From Candidatus Rokuibacteriota bacterium (GTDB lineage: Bacteria; Methylomirabilota; Methylomirabilia; Rokubacteriales; CSP1-6), in assembly GCA_016188005.1 (NCBI GenBank), contig JACPIQ010000044.1, forward strand, positions 1 through 64,000: a DNA stretch of 64,000 nt, given 5' to 3'. The position numbers were made by a program, and so were the translations under genes. The notes beneath the pieces were generated by a model that worked only from the letters and a program-made list of their open reading frames with translations, had not been told where the DNA came from and searched no databases. Within the stretch, counting starts at the first letter, position 1. Each line of letters starts with the position of its first letter. Below are positions 1,593-44,057 of this stretch, in pieces.

Positions 1593-3266
1593 TCAGGTCC
1601 TCTCGGGTCGCTGCGGGTTCATTCCCCGGGCTGCATGAAAGGATAGCATGAAAGGATACGCGAAGTGCGTCGGCGGCACGAAGGTCTCCTTCACCGCCCG
1701 CGGGCTCACCCAGCGCAGCAGGTTGAGCACGCTCCCCGCCTTGTCGTTGGTGCCGGAGGCCCGCGCGCCGCCGAACGGCTGCTGCCCCACCACCGCCCCC
1801 GTCGGCTTGTCGTTGACGTAGAAATTGCCGGCCGCATGGGTGAGGGCTTCCGTCATCCTCGCGATGGCCGCGCGGTCCCGGGCGAAGATGGCGCCCGTCA
1901 GCGCGTACGGCGTCCCCTGGTCGCAGAGGGCCAGCGCCTTGTCGAGATCCTGGTCCGCGTAGACATAGACCGTGAGCACGGGGCCGAAGATCTCCTCGCG
2001 CATGAGCCGGAAGTCGGCGGTCTTCGCGAGCACCACGGTGGGCTCGACGAAGTACCCCGTGCTGTCGTCGCAGCCGCCGCCGCTGAGCAGCTCGGCGTCG
2101 CTGGACCCGCGCGCGTGCTCGACGTAGCCGCGGATGCTGTCGAACGCCGCGCGGTCGATCACCGCCCCCATGAAGTTGGTGAAGTCGGCCACATCCCCCA
2201 TGCGGATCTCGGCCACCTGGGCCAGCAGCGTCGTGCGGAGCCCCGGCCACAGCGAGGCCGGGATGAAGGCCCGCGAGGCGGCCGAGCACTTCTGCCCCTG
2301 GTACTCAAAGGCGCCGCGCACGAGCGCCGTCGCCAGCGCCGCCACCTCGGCCGAGGGATGGGCGAAGACGAAGTCCTTGCCACCCGTCTCGCCGACGAGG
2401 CGGGGATAGGCGCGGTAGCGCCGGATGTTCCGACCCACCGCCTCCCACATGCCCTGGAAGGTCGCCGTGGAGCCGGTGAAGTGGATGCCGCCGAGATGCG
2501 GCGAGCCGAGGGCCGGATCGCCCACCTCCGCGCCGGGGCCGGGCACCATGTTGATGACGCCCGGCGGCAGTCCCGCCTCCTCCAGTAGCTCCATGATGAC
2601 GTGGGCGGAATAGACCGCGGCGGAGGCCGGCTTCCAGATCACCGTGTTGCCCATGAGGGCGGGCGCCGTCGGCAGGTTGCCGGCGATGCTGGTGAAGTTG
2701 AACGGGCTCACCGCGAAGACGAAGCCCTCCAGCGGGCGGTGCTCGAGCCGGTTCCACGTGCCCGGCGCCGAGAGCGGCTGCTGGCCGTAGATCTCCTGCA
2801 TGAAGTGGACGTTGTAGCGCCAGAAGTCGATCAGCTCGCAGGCGGCGTCGATCTCGGCCTGATGCGCCGTCTTGGACTGCCCCAGCATGGTGGCGGCGTT
2901 GAGCACCTGGCGCCAGGGTCCGGCCAGGAGATCGGCGGCCCTGAGGAAGATCGCCGCCCGCTGCTCCCAGGCCATGCGGGACCACGGCCCCTGGGCCTCG
3001 CGTGCGGCCTCGATGGCGCGCGCGACCTCGGCTGCCCCGCCTCGGTGCCAGCGGGCCAGGACATGCTGATGGTTGTGGGGCATGACGGCCTCGCCGAGGC
3101 GACCGGTCTCGACGCGGCGGCCGCCGATGTGCGGGGCGATCTCGACGATCTCCTTGGACATCCGCTCGCACTGGGCTCGGAGCGCGCGCCGCTCCGGGGT
3201 GCCGGGGGCATAGGAGAGCACGGGCTCGTTGCGGGGGCTCGGGACGCTCGGAATCGCGTTGGCCAT
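1593..3266 (-). CDS. pruA: L-glutamate gamma-semialdehyde (1-pyrroline-5-carboxylate) dehydrogenase
   Basis: 557-residue aldehyde dehydrogenase that oxidises glutamate semialdehyde to glutamate with NAD, the second step of proline catabolism. The length and the opening NAIPSVPSPRNEPV fit the stand-alone bacterial/mitochondrial P5CDH type rather than PutA. The general base is in GETGGKDF (about residue 292) and the nucleophilic Cys in GQKCSAASR (about 326). The C-terminal GQQPFGGARASGTNDKAG segment is typical of this subfamily. The ATG at 3266 is preferred over an in-frame GTG at 3284 because GGAGGAG lies 9 nt ahead of the ATG. No proline dehydrogenase is present in the window. It lies just upstream of the acyl-CoA synthetase on the same strand. 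Confidence 0.93.
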   Translation of the reverse strand: MANAIPSVPSPRNEPVLSYAPGTPERRALRAQCERMSKEIVEIAPHIGGRRVETGRLGEAVMPHNHQHVLARWHRGGAAEVARAIEAAREAQGPWSRMAWEQRAAIFLRAADLLAGPWRQVLNAATMLGQSKTAHQAEIDAACELIDFWRYNVHFMQEIYGQQPLSAPGTWNRLEHRPLEGFVFAVSPFNFTSIAGNLPTAPALMGNTVIWKPASAAVYSAHVIMELLEEAGLPPGVINMVPGPGAEVGDPALGSPHLGGIHFTGSTATFQGMWEAVGRNIRRYRAYPRLVGETGGKDFVFAHPSAEVAALATALVRGAFEYQGQKCSAASRAFIPASLWPGLRTTLLAQVAEIRMGDVADFTNFMGAVIDRAAFDSIRGYVEHARGSSDAELLSGGGCDDSTGYFVEPTVVLAKTADFRLMREEIFGPVLTVYVYADQDLDKALALCDQGTPYALTGAIFARDRAAIARMTEALTHAAGNFYVNDKPTGAVVGQQPFGGARASGTNDKAGSVLNLLRWVSPRAVKETFVPPTHFAYPFMLSFHAARGMNPQRPERT

Positions 3267-36011: not shown

Positions 36012-36749
36012 TCACTCCAGGCCGAGGTTCCAGCGCCGGGTCCGGGCGAACTCCGGAGGAACGGGCGGCAGGTCGGACAGGACGAAGCGGACGAACTCCG
36101 CCCGGGAGCGGTACTGGAGGGCGGGATTCTCGCGGCGCTCACGGCCGATGGTCGAGCCCAGGGGCCCGGCCAGGGCCGAGCTCGGTGCGCTGACGCTCAC
36201 ATGAGCCGGATAGACCTCCACGGGGTCGGGCAGCTTGAGCAGGGTGCCGTGGAGGCTGTCGTACAGACGCTCGGCCAGGGCGCCCGCCGCGCCGGCCTCC
36301 TCGACCTCGGGACGTCCCACCCGGCCCGGCAGGAGGGTGTCGCCCGTGAGCACGCTCCAGGGCTCGGTCGCCCGGCTCCGGTCCGTCACCAGGAGGGAGA
36401 GCCCCTCGGGGGTGTGGCCCGGGGTGTGCAGCGCGGTCAGGCGGACATTCCCCAGCTCGTGCTCCTCCTCGTCGGCGAGGCCCGCGTGGGGGAAGGCCAC
36501 CTCGGCCGACTCGTGGAAGAAGACAGGGGCGCGCGTCACGGAGGCGAGCAGGCGAGCGCCGGAGCGGTGATCGCCGTGGGCGTGGGTCTCGACGATGTGG
36601 GTGATGCGCAGGGAGGCCTGCGCGGCCGCCTCGAGATACGGGGCGATGTCCTGCTGTGGATCCACCACAGCGCAGCTGGCTGCACGCGGTCAGCCGAGGA
36701 GATAGCTGGCGCAGCCGGTACCGGGCGCGAGGATCTGCCGGAAGATCAT
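36012..36749 (-). CDS. Probable selenocysteine-containing ETHE1-like metallo-beta-lactamase-fold hydrolase
   Basis: The frame from the ATG at 36749 (AAGGGGG upstream) reads MIFRQILAPGTGCASYLLG, then TGA (36692-36690), then PRAASCAVVDPQQDIAPYL and on to the stop at 36012 without a frame change: 245 codons, UGA at codon 20. MBL motifs follow: THAHGDHRSGARLLA, HTPGHTPEGLSLL, LTGDTLLPGRVGRPE and YPAHVSV, the two-metal or single-Fe site of persulfide dioxygenases and glyoxalase II-like enzymes. The UGA falls where this protein family commonly has Cys (SYLLGC). A hairpin follows the UGA. If UGA were a real stop, translation could restart at a GTG (36668) but would lose the first beta strands. It lies downstream of two Cys-rich small genes. 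Confidence 0.75.
36654..36670 (-). promoter_or_regulatory. Candidate bacterial SECIS hairpin for the metallo-beta-lactamase gene
   Basis: CTGTGGTGGATCCACAG on the coding (minus) strand: perfect 6-bp stem and 5-nt loop UGGAU with G in the second loop position. It starts 19 nt after the UGA, so the loop begins 25 nt after it, within the window normally accepted for bacterial SECIS elements. Confidence 0.5.
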
Positions 36750-36851
36750 CGGAGGGCCCCCTTCTTGGGCGTGGGATCGGTCACAAACGACCCTAGGGGC
36801 CCCCAGGGCGGCCGGCAAGTCGAATGATCAGAACCGAGCGATCGTCGGCGC

Positions 36852-37070
36852 TTATCGGAGCGGCCCCTCCTTGCCCGCGCGGTAGCCCGCGCAGGCCCGA
36901 TGGGCCGGGGTGGTGCAGGTCGAGGCCAGGGTCGCCGGGGCGGGGAAGCGCATGCCGAGCCCGGGCCGGCGACAGAACGCGCTCACGGGATACACGCACA
37001 GGCGATCGGCCGTGACAGGCACGAGAAACGGACACGTCTCCGGTGGCGCGGGCCGGGCACTCTTCTCCAT
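36852..37070 (-). CDS. Small Cys-rich protein of unknown function
   Basis: 72 residues from the ATG at 37070, 2 bp after the stop of the membrane protein gene. Five cysteines are spread as CPFLVPVTADRLCVYPVSAFC and STCTTPAHRACAGYRAG, a spacing that looks like a small metal- or redox-binding fold. I do not recognise the family. Its upstream neighbour is also Cys-rich, and a probable selenoprotein follows 102 bp downstream, so the three may serve one thiol or sulfur task. Confidence 0.6.
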   Translation of the reverse strand: MEKSARPAPPETCPFLVPVTADRLCVYPVSAFCRRPGLGMRFPAPATLASTCTTPAHRACAGYRAGKEGPLR

Positions 37071-37072
37071 GG

Positions 37073-37432
37073 CTATGTCCGGTACGCCACGCCGTCAGCG
37101 ACCAGCGAGAAGCGCGGGACTACCGGCGTGCCGACGGAGGCGGTGTGCGCCAGGGCAAGGCAGCCCTTCTTGCAGCGGATGCGCGCGGGTTCCAGGAAGG
37201 CCGAGCACGAGACGACGTCGGCCGGATACTCGGCGCCCGGCCAGGAGAGGAACGCCGCGTCCACCCGCCGATGGGAGAACGGGCAGTCGAACGACGTCCG
37301 AGCCACCGAGGGGCTGGCCGGCAGGAACTGGGCGAAGACCGTCAGCAGCAGCGCCCCAGCCACCATCACGACCAGGGGACCCAGCAGGACCAGGACCACG
37401 AGGCTCGCCACCACCGCGCCACCCCATTCCAT
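37073..37432 (-). CDS. Small single-pass membrane protein with a Cys-rich tail
   Basis: 119 residues, ATG at 37432 with GGGAGG 8 nt upstream. Residues 4-36 form a long hydrophobic stretch (AVVASLVVLVLLGPLVVMV and following), so the protein is membrane-anchored. The tail carries FDCPFSHRRVDAAFL, DVVSCSAFLEPARIRCKKGCLA: four cysteines in C-x19+-C-x9-C-x3-C spacing, suggestive of a metal or redox site. First gene of a short leftward set with the 72-residue Cys-rich gene. Family not recognised. Confidence 0.6.
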   Translation of the reverse strand: MEWGGAVVASLVVLVLLGPLVVMVAGALLLTVFAQFLPASPSVARTSFDCPFSHRRVDAAFLSWPGAEYPADVVSCSAFLEPARIRCKKGCLALAHTASVGTPVVPRFSLVADGVAYRT

Positions 37433-37731: not shown

Positions 37732-38919
37732 TCAGCCGCTCCCGGCCGACTTGCCCTCCCCTCCCCCGCCCTGTCGCTGCCGCTCCAGGAGCCCCCGCGC
37801 GATCACCAGCCTCAGCGCCTCCGTCGTGCCCTCGCCGATGCGCCAGCCGCGGACCAGCCGGTAGAGCCGCGCCAGCGGATGGCCCTCGACGACGGCGGCG
37901 CCGCCCGTGAGCTGCATGGCGCGGTCCACGATGCGCGCCACGGCCTCGGTGGCGAGCGCCTTGGCCATCGCCGTCTCGGTGTCGACGGCTCCGCCGCCCT
38001 CGGCGAGGCGGGCGCAGGCCCCCAGCGCCGAGCGCGCGGCGAAGAGATCCATCGCGCTGTCGGCGATCATGGCTTGTACCTGCTCCCGCGCTGCGGGCGG
38101 GGTGCCGCTCCGGTGGGGGCGCGCCGTCTGGCTCAGGGTGTAGCCGAGCACCCAGCGCCCCGTGCCGCAGGCCTGAGCGGCCGCCCGCCGCCTGAGCGCC
38201 GTGATGCTCTCGAGCGCGCGCGGCAGCCCCTGGCCGATCTCCCCCAGCACATCCTCGGGCGGCACGGGAGCCTCCCGCAGCTCGAACTCGCCGTGCAGCC
38301 CTCCGTCCAGCGTGCGCAGCTCGCGGCGCAGCACCACTCCCGGAGCCGCGCGCCGGAGCACGAAGAGCGCCGTCCCCGTCGGCCCGCCCTCGTTCTCGGT
38401 GACGCGGGCCACCGTGAGCAGGAGATCGGCATGGGGCCCGTCGGTGACGAAAGCCTTGACGCCGGTGAGGCAGAAGGCCTCGCCGCGCCGCACGGCGGTG
38501 GTCCGCGGTCCCTCGGGGGTGTCGGTGAAGGCGAAGGCCGCGCTGAGCTCCCCTGCGAGCACCGGGGCGAGGAGGCGGCGACGCTGATCGGCCGTCCCGT
38601 GGCGCAGGAGTCCGCCGTCGCCGCCCAGCACGAAGCGGCCCAGAACGCAGTTGGAAGCCGCGATCTCCTCGTGGAGCGCGGCCTGGCCCACGGGGCCGAG
38701 GCCGCCCCCGCCGACCTCCGCAGGCTGGAGCAGGCGGAAGAGGCCGCGGGCCTCCGAGCGGGTGCGCACCCAGCGTCTGAGGGCCGGCGGCGCGTCCGCC
38801 TCGTCCCGCACGCCCTGTGCCCGCTCGGCGGGCAGGAGCTCGTCGCGAAGGAAGGCGCCCGTCCGCTCGCGGAGAGCTTCGAGCTCGGCGGGCAGCGCCT
38901 CCGGGGCCAGAGGGATCAC
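37732..38919 (-). CDS. Acyl-CoA dehydrogenase
   Basis: 395 residues from a GTG whose first bases overlap the stop of the potassium-channel gene (GTGA). FAD-enzyme features are AAFAFTDTPEGPRTTAVR, CLTGVKAFVTDGPHADLLL (flavin pocket), QLTGGAAVVEGHPLARLYRLVRGWRIGEGTTEALRLVIARGLL split over the C-terminal helical domain. The usual Glu base position near GGAAVVEGHPL is present. It dehydrogenates an acyl-CoA in the cytosol and passes electrons to ETF. The translational overlap with an ion channel is odd. Confidence 0.9.
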   Translation of the reverse strand: MIPLAPEALPAELEALRERTGAFLRDELLPAERAQGVRDEADAPPALRRWVRTRSEARGLFRLLQPAEVGGGGLGPVGQAALHEEIAASNCVLGRFVLGGDGGLLRHGTADQRRRLLAPVLAGELSAAFAFTDTPEGPRTTAVRRGEAFCLTGVKAFVTDGPHADLLLTVARVTENEGGPTGTALFVLRRAAPGVVLRRELRTLDGGLHGEFELREAPVPPEDVLGEIGQGLPRALESITALRRRAAAQACGTGRWVLGYTLSQTARPHRSGTPPAAREQVQAMIADSAMDLFAARSALGACARLAEGGGAVDTETAMAKALATEAVARIVDRAMQLTGGAAVVEGHPLARLYRLVRGWRIGEGTTEALRLVIARGLLERQRQGGGGEGKSAGSG

Positions 38920-39971
38920 GGCCGGCCGCGGGCCGCGCCGTTGCCGATCAGCTTCTCGAGCTGCTCCAGCTGACCGCTTGTGCCGAGGGCCAGGAGGCGA
39001 TCGCCCGAGCCCAGCACCAGGTCACGCCCCGGGTTCACCAGCGGCGCGTCCTCCCGCAGGATGGCCAGCACCGTGGCGCCGGTGGCGTGGCGGATGTCGA
39101 CGTCGCCGAGGCTGCGCCCGAGAATGCGGCTGTCGGCGGAGATGGCCAGGTCCTCGATGTTGAGCGCCTCGTTCCCCTTGCGGAGCGCGGTCTCGAAGAA
39201 GTCCACGACGGTCGGGCTCAGGATGAGGTGGGCCAGGCGGTGGCCGCCGATGGCGTAGGGGCTGATCGCGCGGTTGGCGCCGGCGCGGATGAGCTTGGCC
39301 ACGCTGGCCTCGTCCACGGCCCGGGAGACGATGTGGAGAGCCGGGTTGAGGACGCGCGCCGAGAGCACGATGTACATGTTGGTGGCGTCGTTGGCCGTCG
39401 TGACGATGAGGCCGCGCGCTCTGCGGATGCCGGCGCGATCGAGCACCTCGTCCTCCGTCGCATCCCCCTGGACCCAGAGGTAGCCGCGCTCCTCGGTCCT
39501 CCGCGCGGCGGCTGGACTGGGGTCCACGACGACGAACGCGACACCCGCCTCCTTCAGCTCCAGCGCCGCCTGGCCCCCCACACGCCCGAGCCCCGCCAGG
39601 ATCACGTGCCCCGCCACCTTCGCGATCTGCTTCTCCATCCTGCGCCTCCCCCCGGGATCGGCCAGCCGGACCGTGACGAGATACTCCATGAGGACACCGA
39701 GGGCGTAGAAGAGGCTCCCCACCCCGACGACGGCGAGGGCCATGGTGAAGATGCGCCCCGTCCCGTCGAGGGGCTTGACCTCGCCGTAGCCCACGGTCGT
39801 GATGGTGATGACGGTCATGAAGAGGGCGTCGAGCCAGCTGCCTCCGATGCCCCGCCAGAGCCAGGCGTAGCCCACCGTCCCCGCCCCCACGACCCCGGTC
39901 ACGAGCGAGAGGGACAGGAGCACCCGGGGCCGCAGGTAGCGCGTCTCCCGTCGGGCCAGCGGCTTCCACAT
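38916..39971 (-). CDS. Potassium channel with RCK (TrkA-N/TrkA-C) domains
   Basis: 351 residues. Two N-terminal membrane helices flank the selectivity filter TITTVGYGE (about residue 60), making a 2TM pore. A Rossmann RCK domain follows with HVILAGLGRVGGQAALEL, VQGDATEDEVLDRAGI and VTTANDATNMYIVLSARVLNP, then a TrkA-C domain (GRSLGDVDIRHATGATVLAILRED). It is an inner-membrane K+ conductance gated by a ligand on the RCK ring. Divergent from the thioesterase gene with 91 bp between the start codons. Confidence 0.93.
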   Translation of the reverse strand: MWKPLARRETRYLRPRVLLSLSLVTGVVGAGTVGYAWLWRGIGGSWLDALFMTVITITTVGYGEVKPLDGTGRIFTMALAVVGVGSLFYALGVLMEYLVTVRLADPGGRRRMEKQIAKVAGHVILAGLGRVGGQAALELKEAGVAFVVVDPSPAAARRTEERGYLWVQGDATEDEVLDRAGIRRARGLIVTTANDATNMYIVLSARVLNPALHIVSRAVDEASVAKLIRAGANRAISPYAIGGHRLAHLILSPTVVDFFETALRKGNEALNIEDLAISADSRILGRSLGDVDIRHATGATVLAILREDAPLVNPGRDLVLGSGDRLLALGTSGQLEQLEKLIGNGAARGRP

Positions 39972-40062
39972 GAGGCCCGCATCATAGCAGCGCGGGCGCA
40001 GGGTTGACGAGAGCCGCCGCCGCGCCCATGATGCGGGAGGCGCGCGCGCCGCGCCCCGACCC

Positions 40063-40491
40063 ATGCCCGAGGATCTCCTGACCGCCGCCCGCCTGCGAGC
40101 CCAGGCCAACTCCTTCTGGCGCCACCTCGGCATCGAGGTGGACGAGGCCCGCGAGGGCTGGGTACGCCTGCGCGTCCCGATCCGCGACGCGCTCCGCAAC
40201 GCCCCGGGCGCCCCCCTTCACGGCGGCGTCCTGAGCACGCTGGTGGACGCGGCCGTGGGCGCGGCGCTGGGCACGCTGCACGCGGCCTCGGCAGGAGGGG
40301 TGGGGCAGACGACTCTGGACCTCAACGTGAGCTTCCTCGCCGCCGCTGGCGAGGGCGAGGTCTTCGCCGAGGGGCGCATCCTGCGCCGGGGCCGGACCAT
40401 CGCCTTCGGCGAGGCGACCATCACCGACCCGGCCGGCCGGCTCGTGGCCGTCGGCCGCGCCACCTACATGATCATCGCACCGCCCGCGTGA
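40063..40491 (+). CDS. PaaI-type hotdog thioesterase
   Basis: 142 residues with the single hotdog domain. The conserved GAPLHGGVLSTLVDAAVGAAL contains the HGG-x-D/E active-site pattern of PaaI-like thioesterases, followed by TTLDLNVSFLAAAGEGEVFAEG and GRTIAFGEATITDPAGRLVAVG. It hydrolyses acyl- or aroyl-CoA esters. Its stop overlaps an in-frame GTG that could be the start of the next gene. Confidence 0.9.
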   Translation: MPEDLLTAARLRAQANSFWRHLGIEVDEAREGWVRLRVPIRDALRNAPGAPLHGGVLSTLVDAAVGAALGTLHAASAGGVGQTTLDLNVSFLAAAGEGEVFAEGRILRRGRTIAFGEATITDPAGRLVAVGRATYMIIAPPA

Positions 40492-43416: not shown

Positions 43417-43527
43417 CCACGGGGCCACCGCTGTCTTGTTCCCAGCGGCACCCGGTGCCCGGTGCCCCGACCCGTATCCCAATGCAAGACCGCCCCCGCC
43501 CGATGTCGGAATGCAAGACCTGACCCC
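43388..43527. repeat. REPIN/MITE-like element, copy 2
   Basis: 140 bp bounded by GGGGTCAGGTCTTGCA and its complement. A third, partial internal copy (ATGCAAGACC followed by a GC tract) lies near 43482, so this element may be composite. It sits between two convergent genes: it supplies the last codons and stop of the LLM gene, and its right edge coincides with the last base of the stop codon of the CMD-family gene on the opposite strand. Confidence 0.85.
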
Positions 43528-44057
43528 TAGCCGAGGTCGGGGTCGATCTGGAGCGCGTCGTTGAACCGGTTGGTGAAGTTGGCCGCGCAGATCACGAGGG
43601 TCAGCTCGACGATCTGGTCCTCGGTGAAGTGTTCCCTGAGGCCCGCCAGGGCCTCGTCGCGGAGGGCCGCGGCCCCTCGCGTCACTCGCTCCGCGTAGAG
43701 CAGCGTGGCCCTGTCCTTGGCGTCGAAGAGCGGGCTCCGCCGGTAGAACGTCAGCGCCGCGATGTGCTCGTCGGTGATCCCGACCCGCTTCGACGAAGCG
43801 GTGTGGGCGCGGGTTCAGTACTCGCACCCGTTGAGCGTCGAGGCCTCGAGGTAGGCGAGCTCCTTGTAGCGGGGCTCCACCGTCCCCGCGCGCATGACGG
43901 CGGCATAGAACGGCATGAAGTGCTTGAGCACCGAGGGCCGATGGGCCATCACGCCAAACATGTTCGGCATCTTGCCGTAAGCCTTGGTGAGCGCGTCGTA
44001 GATCGGCTGTGCCTCCTCCGCCGCCTGCGGCCTGGGAAGCGGGTTCACGGTCGCCAC
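43527..44057 (-). CDS. Probable selenocysteine-containing CMD/AhpD-like peroxidase-related protein
   Basis: 177 codons from a GTG at 44057 (GGAAGGAGG upstream). The frame reads to NGCEY, then TGA (43817-43815), then TRAHTASSKRVGITDEHI and continues in the same frame through LTFYRRSPLFDAKDRATLLYAERV and DQIVELTLVICAANFTNRFN to TAG at 43529-43527. The carboxymuconolactone-decarboxylase/AhpD active site is C-x-x-C followed by H three residues later; here it is Cys78-Glu-Tyr-UGA81, with His85. UGA thus replaces the resolving Cys exactly. CMD proteins with Cys-x-x-Sec are known selenoproteins. It would act in peroxide or alkylhydroperoxide reduction. The start overlaps the end of the MFS gene by 13 bp. 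Confidence 0.85.
43785..43801 (-). promoter_or_regulatory. Candidate bacterial SECIS hairpin for the CMD gene
   Basis: CCGCTTCGTCGAAGCGG on the coding strand: perfect 7-bp stem with loop GUC, G in the first loop position. It starts 13 nt after the UGA, loop at 20 nt, inside the range used for bacterial SECIS prediction. Being GC-rich, such stems can arise by chance, so it supports the selenoprotein reading but does not prove it. Confidence 0.55.

Follow-up and report, generated by a model that had tools for sequence, protein, structure and literature searches.

Gene content of the locus

The window, a 64,000-nucleotide stretch of a contig from a Candidatus Rokuibacteriota bacterium, carries a gene for a 245-residue protein that matches the metallo-beta-lactamase (MBL) family PF00753 and has an in-frame UGA as its 20th codon (Table 1). 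The coordinates of the original prediction are correct and only the strand, which is minus, was absent from it. The peptide it gave around codon 20, SYLLG-U-PRAASCAVVDPQQ, is matched exactly, and the frame is open on both sides of that codon over 245 codons, as it had claimed. The residue encoded by the UGA, numbered here as Sec20, lies outside any CxxU/UxxC motif. Directly upstream on the same strand is a small open reading frame for which no family match was found.

The original prediction also counted a second UGA site within 8 kb, and this one holds as well. It lies in a gene whose product is AhpD/CMD-like and has the motif CEYU, and the UGA is kept in most of the relatives found. The nearest NCBIfam model, GroundWater_YciW, reaches 100 bits, its cut-off being 310, and CxxU selenoproteins of the CMD/AhpD type are an already catalogued kind. 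Other TGA codons of the window were considered and rejected. The readthrough frame at 38916-40463, with TGA at 40218, has potassium-channel domains after the TGA and no match before it, and six other TGA positions from coding-potential scans seem to be ordinary ends of genes, frames open by chance, or overlaps between frames.

Table 1. Positions of genes, codons, and signals in the window
Feature	Position	Strand	Remarks
MBL selenoprotein gene	36012..36749	minus	245 codons, MBL fold, Sec = codon 20; basis: translation with TGA = U, PF00753, orthologues, model
ATG start of MBL selenoprotein gene	36749-36747	minus	
Shine-Dalgarno-like AAGAAGGGGG, purine-rich	36757..36766	minus	before ATG codon 1; direct reading
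Cys13 codon	36711..36713	minus	conserved as Cys in all 31 UGA proteins and all 7 fused paralogues
Sec UGA codon (codon 20)	36692-36690	minus	basis: TGA in orthologues; fused and stand-alone homologues have a Cys codon here
Cys26 codon	36672..36674	minus	on strand facing Sec20 in predicted beta-hairpin; Cys in 25/31 UGA proteins
SECIS hairpin GCUGUGG-UGGAU-CCACAGC	36653..36671	minus	7 bp, 5-nt loop, starts 18 nt past UGA
His56 codon	36582..36584	minus	first His of THxHxDH, predicted to bind iron; unchanged in 31/31 UGA proteins and in every Cys homologue compared
His112 codon	36414..36416	minus	predicted iron ligand; invariant in 31/31 UGA proteins
Asp137 codon	36339..36341	minus	predicted iron ligand; no variation among 31/31 UGA proteins or the rhodanese-fused Cys homologues
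Terminal TGA of MBL selenoprotein gene	36014-36012	minus	
Small ORF	36852-37073	minus	73 residues, several Cys; directly upstream of MBL gene
AhpD/CMD-like CEYU selenoprotein gene	43527-44057	minus	UGA 43817-43815; second UGA gene in window

Conservation of the UGA codon and of the hairpin behind it

Searching 95 Methylomirabilota genomes, we found 31 UGA-bearing matches in 29 genomes, each with one internal stop that is always TGA. Codon 20 is TGA in all 31 distinct full-length orthologues (~53-91% identical), most of which have AAGGAGG-like Shine-Dalgarno sequences 5' of codon 1; the nearest named relative is a 91%-identical protein of the Candidatus Rokubacteria MAG GWC2_70_16. Four close pairs gave dN/dS values of ~0-0.13 for the part 5' of the UGA and 0.09-0.27 for the part 3' of it, and by this measure purifying selection acts on both sides of the codon. 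Deep searches for UGA orthologues were limited to Methylomirabilota. Other phyla were covered by a single contig scan with six peptide patterns, whose UGA-bearing matches were all from Methylomirabilota/Rokubacteria, and a scan of viral contigs found no relatives of the protein.

The hairpin described in the original prediction is present, with its geometry amended from 6 bp at 19 nt to 7 bp at 18 nt, since the earlier version lacked the outer pair. The segment GCTGTGGTGGATCCACAGC 3' of the UGA is almost invariant among orthologues, and among the first 70 codons synonymous constraint is strongest at the four codons 27, 28, 29, and 31. Pro31 is CCA in 30/30 sequences, a codon that makes up 8% of Pro codons elsewhere in these genes, and Ala27 is GCT in 29/30 (7% elsewhere). 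All seven pairs form in each of the 32 aligned UGA sequences, which answers the question of conservation that had been raised, and the hairpin is missing from Cys copies. Searched as a pattern, UGA-N18-hairpin gives 30 matches in 28 of the 95 genomes and none with the reversed control. Published limits for bSECIS elements are a loop of 3-9 nt with a G in its first two positions, a stem of 4-16 bp, a UGA-to-loop distance of 16-37 nt, and an energy of at most -7.5 kcal/mol; the window hairpin meets them with the 5-nt loop UGGAU (G second), a 7-bp stem, 25 nt, and -11.1 kcal/mol. Covariation support is thin because the stem hardly varies: we see one compensatory and one wobble change, equaled in 21 of 500 shuffles. 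Single-sequence folding is ordinary (z = -0.32), and Rfam at gathering thresholds found nothing in the window. The evidence for the hairpin is comparative and is not a matter of single-sequence stability.

That the organism decodes UGA as Sec had been inferred from the two sites alone, and the machinery is found directly in its genome: tRNA-Sec (69 bits), SelA (577 bits), SelB (364 bits), and SelD (348 bits), all above cut-off. The first three are grouped on contig 4, and the SelD gene (contig 86, 102037-102972) itself contains an in-frame UGA. SelA occurs in 83 of the 95 Methylomirabilota genomes and in 31 of the 32 in which a protein or pattern search located the UGA gene; the one without SelA is an 85%-complete MAG.

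Two readings would remove Sec from codon 20. The TGA might be a nonsense mutation, the mark of a pseudogene, or an assembly error, given that the assembly is metagenomic, that several conserved residues are missing from the window copy, and that truncated relics of the family exist. However, all 31 full-length genes, which come from independent assemblies, have TGA at this codon and an open frame on either side of it; selection remains purifying past the UGA, and the hairpin is conserved. This conservation already refutes the idea, and we regard it as practically ruled out. The original prediction had held a chance nonsense mutation to be unlikely and had named resequencing as a check; TGA in every independent full-length orthologue serves in its place. 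Alternatively, UGA could be read as Cys or Trp by general recoding, or translation could start at GTG 36668, which opens a 218-codon frame, leaving the UGA to end a leader peptide. Against general recoding, the MBL gene itself and neighboring genes end in TGA, whereas a downstream start would disregard the Shine-Dalgarno sequence and the family N-terminus MIFRQ before the UGA in orthologues, a region under the low dN/dS given above, and would, according to the model, cost the protein its first MBL-fold strand. The presence of tRNA-Sec and SelB further counts against both versions, which we consider highly improbable. Sec insertion at codon 20 of the MBL protein is thus inferred with near certainty from sequence comparison, with no protein or selenium measurement behind it.

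Homologues, predicted metal site, and gene neighborhood

Related MBL proteins had been expected often to have Cys at the Sec position, and homologues that do were found. Position 20 is a Cys codon (TGC or TGT) in 7/7 rhodanese-fused MBL paralogues and TGT in stand-alone homologues from other phyla, on Acidiphilium and Cytobacillus plasmids, and at the protein level a Cys of CstB and of 3tp9 aligns with Sec20.

Two incomplete copies were also seen. One, on contig 69 of the same genome as the window (2030-2260), is a truncated gene copy with Cys (TGT) at codon 20, in which homology ends after residue 77 and an apparent alcohol dehydrogenase continues in another frame; it is either a relic or a chimeric assembly. 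It keeps the peptide CAVVDPQ and not the hairpin codons (GCC GTC GTG GAT CCG CAG). Because it groups with the window gene in the tree (100/98 support), a Sec-to-Cys change is suggested for this copy; the tree does not resolve the monophyly of all Sec forms. The other is a divergent, UGA-bearing relic of the family (genome G026, contig 145, gene start 1409, minus strand) with a different hairpin, GUCUAC-GGUC-GUAGAC, which is bSECIS-like and similar in geometry to that of the main family. Both copies act as natural controls, and they agree with the reading of the hairpin as a SECIS.

The original prediction called the protein ETHE1-like. Its kinship with MBL-fold persulfide dioxygenases, enzymes of sulfide detoxification, stands, and the nearest kin are of the CstB type (type III), not ETHE1 itself. 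A profile search of solved structures gave 3tp9 (E=7e-60) and CstB 3r2u (7e-54) as best matches and ETHE1-type persulfide dioxygenases next (1e-17 to 1e-30). The AlphaFold2 model (pLDDT 78.5, pTM 0.81) was built on an alignment of 4 sequences, which alone gave a pLDDT of 35, with five distant relatives and one partial relative added; fold comparison of this model ranks the matches as the profile search did, with CstB-type persulfide dioxygenases on top. No model of NCBIfam release 20 fits the protein, equivalog cut-offs not being reached, and GloB (glyoxalase II) scores 68 bits against a cut-off of 200.8. Since the chain stops at residue 245, past the MBL domain, and lacks C-terminal rhodanese domains, we do not file it as CstB. 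Most likely, as far as sequence and predicted fold can tell, it is a Sec variant of the CstB-type persulfide dioxygenases.

His56, His112, and Asp137 are iron ligands on our assumption that they are equivalent to the ligands of ETHE1-type enzymes. Because these three are invariant and 28/31 UGA proteins have Gln for the second His of THxHxDH (the window protein keeps His), a mono-metal, persulfide-dioxygenase-like center fits better than that of a di-zinc hydrolase, the metal content being inferred. The protein retains Asp60 and His61, which belong to the second metal site. In the stand-alone Acidiphilium and Cytobacillus homologues His replaces Asp137; the metal site may differ there, and the MBL module may therefore not be a dioxygenase everywhere. 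In the model, strands 16-20 and 25-29 form a beta-hairpin whose first strand ends with residue 20, from which we infer that this residue is probably not a metal ligand; the model provides no Sec-iron distance. A further residue, C189, is Cys in 29/31 UGA proteins and aligns with C201 of CstB; the window protein has Pro there, and its genus-mate Thr.

The UGA gene is followed by a major facilitator superfamily (MFS) gene in 28/31 loci, within 66 nt or with slight overlap, and a divergent LysR gene lies upstream in 23 of the 29 loci that could be assessed. Nine LysR proteins were compared with NF040786, the selenium-metabolism LysR family: eight, from different loci, match at 237-248 bits, slightly below the curated cut-off of 250, and the match of the ninth falls short of E=1e-60. 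LysR_Se proteins have been reported only in SelD-containing organisms, and an archaeal orthologue of LysR_Se, HrsM, acts as a repressor of the genes for selenium-free hydrogenases in the presence of selenium (PMC5322559). Both neighbors, MFS and LysR, are missing beside the window copy, and the window protein and that of its genus-mate depart from the family at residues conserved elsewhere. With the operon left and the C201 equivalent lost, the role of the protein may have shifted in this genus. On the Acidiphilium and Cytobacillus plasmids, the stand-alone Cys MBL gene is in an operon with an MFS gene and an ArsR-rhodanese fusion gene, the latter pointing to sulfane sulfur.

Proposed function and relation to known systems

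Overall, we consider a Sec-decoding, CstB-like MBL protein with a role in persulfide chemistry to be the probable explanation. As sequence comparison shows, the organism's own SelA, SelB, SelD, and tRNA-Sec read UGA codon 20 as Sec, directed by the hairpin 18 nt downstream; in the inferred part of the scheme, a mononuclear iron on His56, His112, and Asp137 would oxidize a low-molecular-weight persulfide with O2 to sulfite. We lean toward such a persulfide-dioxygenase-type reaction, which rests on homology alone, the activity being inferred. TauE, encoded beside CstB, is thought to export sulfite or a related product, and by analogy the co-transcribed MFS protein of relatives may do the same, while the LysR_Se-type regulator would couple expression to selenium supply. 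As Sec20 terminates the first strand of the predicted beta-hairpin and is probably no metal ligand, it would most likely be a peripheral nucleophile that docks or relays persulfide sulfur, or a redox switch, in place of Cys20 of the CstB relatives; we put this relay or redox role forward only tentatively. More speculative, and rather doubtful as a whole, is a selenium-dependent branch of persulfide oxidation in which the first MBL-fold selenoenzyme, with a dedicated MFS exporter, a selenium-sensing LysR, and a metal-remote Sec that captures or relays sulfane sulfur or its selenium analogue, would operate side by side with a Cys-type isoenzyme, fused to rhodanese, that many of these genomes also encode.

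A true selenoprotein need not be a persulfide dioxygenase. It could be a hydrolase of the glyoxalase II/thioesterase type, with which it has the MBL fold, the 68-bit GloB match, and the retained Asp60 and His61 in its favor. However, the second His of THxHxDH is mostly Gln, both the profile and the fold comparison have only persulfide dioxygenase types as their best matches, and the Cys relatives adjoin rhodanese-type sulfur genes, all of which makes a hydrolase unlikely. The substrate could also be a selenium or metalloid compound such as a selenopersulfide, handled by a selenium operon with an MFS exporter. The adjacent LysR_Se-like regulator and an MFS partner of unknown substrate would suit this, but the regulator may only match expression to Sec supply, and in Acidiphilium and Cytobacillus the Cys MBL-MFS pair stands beside the ArsR-rhodanese gene, which indicates sulfane sulfur; we give this possibility little weight.

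The MBL selenoproteins are a real family that is absent from the 2026 catalog, the deep-Sep paper, and NCBIfam release 20. Table 1 of a review of May 2026 gives 119 prokaryotic selenoprotein families or subfamilies (PMC13188914), none of them an MBL-fold or persulfide dioxygenase family, and the deep-Sep paper has no MBL-fold family. The same review credits Deng et al. 2026 (Cell Rep 45:116760) with predicting 63 selenoproteins in a single Methylomirabilota MAG, and an earlier listing of the MBL selenoprotein in that study is possible. With this exception, the suggestion of a possible new selenoprotein family is upheld. Without an MBL-fold member in the catalog, the family would add a new fold class and, for an uncultured phylum, tie the metabolism of H2S and persulfides to selenium. 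Moreover, the coexistence of Sec forms, Cys forms, and a relic that appears to have reverted from Sec to Cys makes the importance of the CstB-type Cys testable. Standard annotation would end such genes at codon 20, yielding apparent truncated hydrolases.

Compared with known systems, the protein is closest to CstB and 3tp9, its best profile and fold matches, with which it has the predicted iron ligands in common; their Cys20 aligns with Sec, and C201 with C189 of most UGA proteins. It differs from them in standing alone without rhodanese domains, in having Sec for Cys20, and in pairing with MFS and LysR_Se genes, whereas CstB is paired with CstR/TauE/SQR; the window copy also lacks the C201 equivalent. 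The type I enzymes (hETHE1, MxPDO, and AcPDO) have the same fold, the same predicted mono-iron ligands, and a single domain, but their kinship is more distant, and MxPDO has Asp at the Sec position. The essential surface Cys residues of AcPDO are C87 and C224 (PMC6060420), at positions that differ from Sec20; that essential Cys can be distal makes a role of Sec away from the metal plausible. The Acidiphilium and Cytobacillus operons resemble the UGA loci in their stand-alone MBL protein of the same length (43-49% identity), with Cys at codon 20, and in the MFS gene directly downstream, whose product is 39-50% identical over ~285 residues of the Rokubacteria MFS; they differ in having Cys and not Sec, no hairpin, His for Asp137, and ArsR-rhodanese instead of LysR_Se. 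Finally, none of the catalogued selenoprotein families is an MBL-fold protein or persulfide dioxygenase, and the placement of Sec20 outside CxxU/UxxC also sets this family apart, but it shares with them the swap of Cys for Sec, the bSECIS geometry, and the SelA/SelB/SelD machinery.
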